DNA from: Nakamurella sp. PAMC28650
GTDB taxonomy: Bacteria; Actinomycetota; Actinomycetes; Mycobacteriales; Nakamurellaceae
Assembly (NCBI RefSeq): GCF_014303395.1
Contig: NZ_CP060298.1
Span: 4,669,001-4,733,000 of the forward strand
DNA: 64,000 nt
Reading direction: 5' to 3'
Below the pieces are notes generated by a model that was given only the letters and a program-made list of their open reading frames with translations, searched no databases and was not told the DNA's origin. Each line of letters starts with the position of its first letter. Position 1 is the first letter of the stretch. A program made the position numbers and the translations under genes. Shown piece after piece: positions 30,824 through 32,552 of this stretch.

Positions 30824-30863
30824 GAGCCGGATGCGGTAGCCTGGCCGGACAACTGAATCACCA

Positions 30864-31013
30864 CTCATCCAGAGGGGCAGAGGGATACGGCCCGATGAAG
30901 CCCCGGCAACCACTGATGATGATCTCCTTCTCGTTGTAGAGGCACAGCCTCGCCACTTCGAGGCCGGTCGTCAGCAGGTGCCCCGTCCGTCCCGCTCCGG
31001 CGGGAAAGATGAG
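30864..31013 (+). ncRNA. SAM-I (S-box) type riboswitch upstream of thrC
   Basis: The conserved core is unmistakable: CAGAG, GAGGGATACGGCCCGATGAA, GCCCCGGCAACC, and a later AGGTGCC. The P1 stem is CTCATC (30864-30869) with GATGAG (31008-31013). P3 can form from CTGA/TCAG around an extended arm, and a CCCGC-TCCG-GCGGG hairpin precedes the P1 3' strand. It binds S-adenosylmethionine in this family. The switch ends 15 bases before the thrC start. The bases after P1 (GACGA...TCGTC, 31013-31028) can fold with the AAAGG ribosome-binding site in the loop, and the P1 3' strand GATGAG can alternatively pair with CTCGTC, so control is probably at translation. The direction of control is not determined. 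Confidence 0.88.
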
Positions 31014-31028
31014 ACGAAAGGCCTCGTC

Positions 31029-32306
31029 ATGACCTCTGTCATCAGCTCTGCCAGCCCCACCACCAGTTCGGTCGATCTCGGTCCGGCCGTGGCGCTGTCG
31101 TGTCGCGAGTGCGGAAACCGCGTCGCCCTCGGGCCCTTCTACGCGTGCACCGAATGTTTCGGGCCGTTGGAGGTCGCCTACGAGTTCACCTCCACCGGCC
31201 AGGCCCTCCGCGAGCAGATCGAGGCCGGGCCGCAGAACATCTGGCGCTACGCTCCCCTGCTTCCCGTTCCGGCCGACATCGCCGGCACTCCCAACATCAA
31301 CCCGGGCGGTACCAAGCTCGTCCGCGCCGACAACCTGGCGCGCGAGCTCGGGATGAAAACCCTGTGGGTGAAGGATGATTCGGGTAATCCGACGCACTCC
31401 TTCAAGGACCGGGTGGTCGCCGTCGCGCTCGCTGCCGCCCGTCAGCTCGGCTTCAAGGTGCTCGCCTGCCCGTCGACCGGCAACCTGGCCAATGCGGTGG
31501 CCGCGGCCGCAGCACGCGCCGGGATCCGTTCGGTGGTCTTCGTACCGTCCAACCTCGAGCAGCAGAAGATCCTGACGACGGCGGCCTACGGCGGAACCCT
31601 GGTCGCCGTCGACGGCAACTACGACGACATCAACCGCCTGGCCGGGGAGATCGCCGGTGAGCAGGAGGACTGGGCCTTCGTCAACGTCAACGTCCGGCCC
31701 TATTACGCCGAGGGATCCAAGACTCTCGGCTACGAGGTCGCCGAGCAGCTCGGCTGGCGACTGCCCGAGCAGGTCGTCATCCCGATCGCCTCGGGCGCCC
31801 AACTGGTCAAGATCGACAAGGGGTTCAGCGAGTTGGTCGCGCTCGGCCTGGTGGAGGACGCGTCGTACAAGGTCTTCGGCGCCCAGGCGACCGGCTGCAA
31901 CCCGGTCTCGGCGGCGTTCAAGGACGGCCGCGACTTCATCCAGCCCGTTCGCCCCGACACGATCGCCAAGTCGCTCGCGATCGGCAATCCGGCAGACGGT
32001 CCCTATGTGCTCGACGTGGTCAAGCGGACCGGCGGCGCAATCGAGGACGTCACCGACGAAGAGGTCATCGAGGGCATCAAGTTGCTGGCCCGGACCGAGG
32101 GCATCTTCGCCGAGACCGCGGGCGGCGTCACGGTTGCCGTGCTGCGCAAGCTGCTGGCCTCCGGTCAGCTGGACCCGAACGCCGAGACGGTCATCTTCAA
32201 CACCGGCGACGGTCTCAAGACCCTCGATGCCATTGCCCACGTCGTCGGCCCGACCGCCACCATCCCGCCGACGCTGGCAGCCTTCGACGCGACCGGCCTC
32301 GCGTAG
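31029..32306 (+). CDS. thrC: Threonine synthase
   Basis: A 425-residue PLP enzyme converting O-phosphohomoserine to threonine and phosphate. Seen: an N-terminal four-Cys zinc ribbon (Cys 25, 28, 40, 43), PLP lysine in PTHSFKDR (K126), the phosphate loop CPSTGNLANAVAAAAARA, and VFNTGDGLKT-like FNTGDGLKTLDA at the end. The zinc ribbon is common in archaeal/actinobacterial-type enzymes. The ATG at 31029 has AAAGG seven bases upstream. It is preceded by a SAM riboswitch and followed by a strong hairpin, so it is a single-gene unit. Confidence 0.96.
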   Translation: MTSVISSASPTTSSVDLGPAVALSCRECGNRVALGPFYACTECFGPLEVAYEFTSTGQALREQIEAGPQNIWRYAPLLPVPADIAGTPNINPGGTKLVRADNLARELGMKTLWVKDDSGNPTHSFKDRVVAVALAAARQLGFKVLACPSTGNLANAVAAAAARAGIRSVVFVPSNLEQQKILTTAAYGGTLVAVDGNYDDINRLAGEIAGEQEDWAFVNVNVRPYYAEGSKTLGYEVAEQLGWRLPEQVVIPIASGAQLVKIDKGFSELVALGLVEDASYKVFGAQATGCNPVSAAFKDGRDFIQPVRPDTIAKSLAIGNPADGPYVLDVVKRTGGAIEDVTDEEVIEGIKLLARTEGIFAETAGGVTVAVLRKLLASGQLDPNAETVIFNTGDGLKTLDAIAHVVGPTATIPPTLAAFDATGLA

Positions 32307-32376: not shown

Positions 32377-32401
32377 CCGCATCTCCGGGGCCAGGGTGTG
32401 G

Positions 32402-32498
32402 CATGGATCAACATCGCACGCATGGCCGAACTTGACGACTTCTGTCCCACCAGTCCCAAACGAGCCACTTTGATCCATGCCTGCGAAGTTGATCCACG
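32402..32498. repeat. Dispersed palindromic-ended repeat, copy 2 (97 bp)
   Basis: Arms CATGGATCAACATCGCA and TGCGAAGTTGATCCACG form an imperfect inverted repeat. The reverse complement aligns with the copy at 1517-1594: shared blocks are TTTGGGAC, GGGACAG, AGTC, TTC and CCATGC in the same order, with about 20 extra bases near one arm. It lies in the gap between the converging thrC and hemA genes. Confidence 0.72.
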
Positions 32499-32552
32499 CG
32501 CACACCGGGCCACGCGCACCCCGGGCCAGGCGAATGACGGGACCGCGCCGGG

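Follow-up and report, generated by a model that had tools for sequence, protein, structure and literature searches.

A SAM-I riboswitch in Nakamurella sp. PAMC28650 as a probable OFF switch on a metM-like ThrC-family gene

Introduction

The S-box (SAM-I) riboswitches of the Bacillota are classically transcription-termination switches. The same aptamer family is present at the locus described here, and the terminator/antiterminator design recurs in six distant leaders of the same gene family, whereas the leader studied here has no room for a terminator. In Mycobacterium, cysteine can be made by a route employing CysM, CysO and Mec. In Streptomyces albulus, the metM-metO pair, ascribed to work by Hasebe et al. 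in 2024, is said to form a system in which MetM uses O-phosphohomoserine together with thiocarboxylated MetO.

In the available part of one report, S. albulus MetM is a homocysteine synthase for which an upstream SAM riboswitch is implied (PMC12172450), such that a SAM switch on a homocysteine synthase is a kind of control already described in Streptomyces. The same text describes a cyanobacterial (Microcystis) homologue that shares 51.6% identity with S. albulus MetM, which made threonine in vitro, which according to the authors seems not to be a fully functional MetM in vivo and which, unlike S. albulus metM, has no upstream SAM riboswitch (PMC12172450). As far as the accessible text goes, an RF00162 leader in S. 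lividans TK24 stands before SLIV_16930-SLIV_16925, listed under threonine biosynthesis (PMC8079986). The resemblance to the genome studied here extends to SAM-I before threonine-labelled genes and SAM-IV before a cysteine desulfurase, while that text retains the threonine label and does not discuss the sign of control (PMC8079986). A further paper, in the part available, concerns thrC of Bacillota (PMC12452182).

The locus lies in a stretch of 64,000 nucleotides of Nakamurella sp. PAMC28650 (NZ_CP060298.1, positions 4,669,001 to 4,733,000 of the forward strand), hereafter the window. As in S. albulus, a ThrC-like gene stands behind a SAM riboswitch, but metO does not follow it and metX-metY is present in the genome. 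As in Mycobacterium, the genome has mec-cysO-cysM-like genes (assigned by eye), and the MetO-like ORFs of relatives match CysO strongly, although a use of CysO by MetM is our proposal.

Results

A cmscan of the whole window placed RF00162 (SAM-I/S-box) at 30862-31015 on the forward strand with 69.6 bits (gathering threshold 44.4, E 3.4e-14), the match spanning the full model (1-108 of 108) and being the sole RNA family at its gathering threshold in the window. Assignment to SAM-IV or SAM-I/IV was rejected, RF00162 having outscored the overlapping clan members, of which the best was kept. No second SAM-I was seen in a genome-wide search in which 150 of 321 first-look candidates were scored. By sequence and covariance match, P1 is a helix of 6 bp formed by CTCATC (30864-30869, forward strand) with GATGAG (31008-31013), followed after 3 nt by the Shine-Dalgarno (SD) sequence AAAGG (31017-31021) and, 15 nt from the end of P1, by the ATG at 31029. 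A sequence-only reading of this DNA had recognised the S-box core and the 6-bp P1 from the letters; the covariance search that it had proposed bears this out, with P1, AAAGG and ATG where it had placed them. The aptamer would sense SAM. Directly 5′ of P1 stands the block ACAACTGAATCACCA (30849-30863, forward strand), the 14 bases before P1 being strongly conserved in 81 leaders with the consensus ACAACTGAATACCG, which is probably the promoter -10/start region.

An intrinsic terminator was rejected for the window leader, since 15 nt leave no room for one, and control would therefore be translational. Two pairings can be drawn in this short space, as the sequence-only reading had held. The pre-start bases CTCGTC (31023-31028, forward strand) are a possible partner of GATGAG in a pairing competing with P1, and a smaller SD hairpin (31013-31028) may form between GACGA (31013-31017) and TCGTC (31024-31028), which by sequence and folding could stack on P1 and has one base in common with it.

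The gene behind the riboswitch (31029-32306, forward strand) encodes 425 aa of the ThrC family, and is assigned as metM-like on family models, MetM-type loops and its SAM-I-linked homologues. Its score of 279.7 bits exceeds the cut-off (167.1) of the NCBIfam equivalog TIGR00260, named “threonine synthase”, for which the canonical ThrC encoded elsewhere in this genome scores 296.3 bits. Its best-scoring model is PRK08197, which it narrowly misses (291.5 vs 303). PRK08197, likewise named “threonine synthase”, gives the canonical ThrC of the genome only 176.5 against the 291.5 of the window gene, and may describe MetM-type proteins. The canonical thrC stands elsewhere in the genome, in a cluster of the order lysA-hom-thrC-thrB (neighbours named by eye). 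Against the solved ThrC of M. tuberculosis (2d1f) it scores 498 bits and the window gene 156 bits, the two proteins of the genome being 35% identical. In seven genomes of the same class and 7-10 Mb, presumably Streptomyces and called Streptomyces-like here, the window gene has homologues of 65-70% identity with similar leader tails. A homologue of 68% in a Nonomuraea plasmid record was the sole one in the plasmid collection.

The PLP lysine and the STGN motif are retained in the window protein, but ThrC residues are replaced in the loops: T after STGN by L, S and R of NSVNPxR by N and Y, respectively, and GNA by ASG. These residues are alike in the window protein and in all 93 relatives compared, 50 linked to metO and 43 solitary (43 of 47 solitary genes, L039, L045, L054 and L076 being left out). 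At the column of the catalytic threonine of ThrC, the window protein and all 43 solitary relatives retain T, and 34 of the 50 metO-linked ones have S. By identity and loop residues the window gene thus falls with Streptomyces-type MetM, as represented by the proteins of the Streptomyces-like genomes, and apart from canonical ThrC. It is a probable O-phosphohomoserine-dependent homocysteine synthase and very probably not a threonine gene. The sequence-only reading had put thrC 15 bases behind the switch and had argued that an ON switch would make sense for a threonine synthase; the distance and the ThrC family are upheld, but, given the separate canonical cluster and the MetM-type loops, neither the identification with the cell's threonine synthase nor the ON switch built upon it is supported. 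For a homocysteine maker an ordinary OFF switch makes sense, and the apparent paradox is gone.

Behind metM, at 32400-32500 of the window, stands a palindromic repeat roughly 100 bp long (GCATGGATCAAC ... GTTGATCCATGC), with a related copy near 1516-1595. It has at least 84 matches in its own genome, both strands counted and 40 of 108 candidates scored, and is a REP- or MITE-like family.

RF00162 was found above its cut-off upstream in all 80 homologous loci kept, out of 143 homologues found in the genome collection. A phylum sample of 198 genomes contained 74 MetM-like genes (E at most 1e-100) and 142 SAM-I matches (E at most 0.001). SAM-I lay within 500 nt upstream of at least 49 of the 74, a lower bound given the stricter filters of this SAM-I search, such that 49 of the 142 SAM-I matches face a MetM-like gene. 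SAM-I was not found upstream of 25 of the 74 genes in this sample, among them two that start where a contig ends (G017, G058) and 15 in families f13 and f15 in which the absence of the switch seems real. Canonical-type ThrC was also present in 71 of the 74 MetM genomes (not in G149, G097 and G058 at the cut-off used, and in G017, G111 and G175 on weak matches), and none of the 150 canonical thrC genes listed had SAM-I within 5 kb, a few places being unlisted. MetX (E at most 1e-60) was present in 17 of the 74 MetM genomes vs 55 of the 124 others (Fisher p 0.0035, uncorrected for kinship), as expected for alternative routes, and all 17 belong to the 49 with the switch.

In the window lineage the platform between P1 and the start codon is short, being 9-20 nt in 88 leaders. 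These are 81 leaders and the seven Streptomyces-like ones, folding having parsed 79 of the 81, with L023 and L076, missed by the folding pattern, added for the pairing analysis. According to predicted duplexes, SD and P1 3′ strand overlap in 65 of the 79, the SD of the window standing behind that strand. With P1 forced, opening the ribosome site of the window would cost 3.9 kcal/mol, against 3.8 kcal/mol when the P1 5′ strand is blocked; the sign of control is not evident from the 15-nt platform itself, and the doubt of the sequence-only reading about the sign from this leader was fair. Across the 79 leaders, the formation of P1 made the SD cheaper to open in 67, left the cost unchanged in 4 and raised it in 8, such that the folding energies of most short leaders lean towards ON, by a measure that takes the bases outside P1 and ignores the SD bases covered by P1 in 65 of the 79.

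CCTC precedes the start codon in 81 of the 88 short leaders. The 6-bp GATGAG/CTCGTC pairing, with one G-T, occurs in one of 48 distinct short leaders, that of the window, while in 35 of the 48 (34 besides the window) the P1 3′ strand could form a pairing of at least 5 bp with the pre-start bases. No compensatory change supporting this pairing was found among the 48. The P1 3′ strand is GATGGG in 21 of the 88 leaders, with CCTCG unchanged in 20 of those, and in L084 a double change preserves P1 while CCTC is absent. For the covariation of GATGAG with CTCGTC that had been proposed as a check, the changes observed are one-sided. The ON design suggested by GATGAG/CTCGTC enclosing AAAGG can be drawn and has the folding energies of most short leaders on its side, while the missing compensation and the six OFF-type platforms of distant relatives speak against it.

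The distant set comprises 47 of 48 leaders fetched (L186, its match cut by a contig end, was left out), four of which (L118, L121, L169, L185) had no start assigned and enter no count. Long platforms, with the start at least 30 nt behind P1, make up 33 of 43 distant leaders. In six of these (L115, L163, L165, L170, L171, L173) a hairpin and a T run lie between P1 and the gene, the 5′ arm or loop of the hairpin carrying the complement of the P1 3′ strand, as in GATGTGG with CCACATC. SAM-induced P1 would leave the terminator free to form, which is the classical OFF design. L176 has the same complement-in-hairpin design with a broken T run. A T run is present in nine of the 33 long platforms, the six OFF cases and L113, L161 and L175, in which the best target does not support an OFF design. 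In a shuffle test, 9 of the 33 reached p<0.05 (Fisher 2.7e-6, too optimistic since near-identical relatives, L170/L171/L176 and L115/L163, are included), and the other 24 had no significant complement of the P1 3′ strand; among the six, L165 alone was without significance (p 0.10). The distant terminators, a minority of the long platforms, support OFF control for the metM family, and for the window itself OFF control would follow from kinship and function.

No metO stands behind the window gene, and a genome-wide PF02597 search gave three matches, none near the window. A CysO/MetO-like ORF follows metM in 33 of the 80 loci and in 17 of 20 further loci, while none stands beside metM in 47 of the 80; adjacency is common and is not needed for the reaction. 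In all ten searched relatives without a neighbouring metO, CysO stands beside cysM, with mec in nine and the tenth (L140) cut by the contig. No second MetO-like protein was found among 30 of 43 ThiS matches read, from 13 genomes, where other ThiS-type proteins occur. The CysO of the window genome (L009, 1489-1770, reverse strand) ends GG-SQV and not GG, such that its activation would first require trimming; next to it stands a Mec-like gene.

The other homocysteine route is represented in the genome by metY-metX, MetY matching TIGR01326 with 636.9 bits and MetX passing NF047917 and PRK00175, while staying below the cut-off of TIGR01392 (500), a score reached in none of the 14 control genomes. 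This pair stands behind a SAM-IV riboswitch and the sole SAM-I found in the genome serves metM, such that two riboswitch classes guard the two routes. Four more SAM-IV elements occur in the genome. SAM-IV is found before a cysteine desulfurase-like class V aminotransferase and before two NtaA/DmoA-type flavin enzymes. At two further places (L124, G000:C1:1898239-1898354, and L126, G000:C1:2324668-2324781) SAM-IV is followed by short reading frames with RRHVDLxRVSSxLCC, resembling cysteine leader peptides placed in tandem with a SAM switch; the genes behind them encode a class I/II aminotransferase at one and a cysteine dioxygenase at the other. In a genome of the same order (L128, G050:C75:67592-67960), SAM-I and SAM-IV are close neighbours in divergent orientation, on opposite strands.

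Discussion

We consider it highly probable that the SAM-I riboswitch of the window is an ordinary OFF switch on metM, a ThrC-family homocysteine synthase. Plentiful SAM would stabilise P1, and with the P1 3′ strand 3 nt from the ribosome-binding site, and overlapping it in most short-platform relatives, translation of MetM would be blocked. MetM, a PLP enzyme, would draw on the O-phosphohomoserine of the threonine branch and on a thiocarboxylated carrier protein for its sulfur, giving homocysteine for methionine and SAM. OFF is favoured over ON by the identity of the gene and the OFF platforms of relatives. Against the MetM OFF switch count the TIGR00260 pass and the threonine made in vitro by the Microcystis homologue, the lack of an adjacent metO, the presence of metX-metY and the T/S column that splits the solitary from the metO-linked proteins, as well as the 25 of 74 genes without SAM-I, the folding of the short platforms, which is not of OFF type, and the 24 of 33 long platforms without a complement.

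Several of these points would fit other explanations. Were the gene a threonine synthase under an ON switch, SAM-stabilised P1 would free the SD from GATGAG/CTCGTC and O-phosphohomoserine would be turned to threonine at high SAM. The pairing of at least 5 bp possible in 35 of the 48 distinct leaders and the SD that folding leaves more open with P1 in 67 of 79 are in keeping with this, as is the in vitro activity of the homologue in the accessible text (PMC12172450). A separate canonical ThrC in this genome and in 71 of 74 MetM genomes, none of the 150 listed having SAM-I, the MetM-type loops, the OFF-type terminators of the six distant leaders and the one-sided pairing changes, together with the P1 double change of L084 without CCTC, nevertheless make it decidedly improbable. 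The same in vitro activity, in the part of the source available (PMC12172450), also suits an OFF switch on a bifunctional ThrC/MetM enzyme feeding both threonine and homocysteine, for which the retained PLP lysine and STGN and the ThrC-like T of the window and solitary proteins speak as well; with a canonical thrC present, and with the ThrC residues after STGN, at S and R of NSVNPxR and at GNA replaced in 93 of 93 relatives, such an enzyme is unlikely.

The 47 of 80 loci without a CysO/MetO-like ORF beside metM, the metX-metY of this genome and the one active-site column that differs between solitary and metO-linked proteins might instead suggest that, in a metO-less, metX-bearing lineage, gene and switch were retained for another PLP reaction. 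The remaining loop columns and the aptamer are, however, equally conserved in both groups, and we give this explanation hardly any credence. Under the OFF switch on metM, CysO is perhaps the sulfur donor of the solitary MetM, a proposal made because no MetO stands beside metM. It is conceivable, though we would put it at rather less than even, that MetM of the Nakamurella-like bacteria and of Pseudonocardiales lost its own carrier and draws thiocarboxylate sulfur from CysO, one carrier serving cysteine and homocysteine, with SAM-I and SAM-IV separately gating the two routes in the window genome.

With metM behind the switch, the apparent paradox of a SAM switch on the wrong branch is removed, and the SAM-controlled “threonine synthases” of Actinomycetota are probably misnamed homocysteine synthases. 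The terminator-type leaders of distant relatives offer a direct test of the sign of control, and the metO-less lineage raises the question of a shared carrier and of why two riboswitch classes guard two routes to homocysteine.
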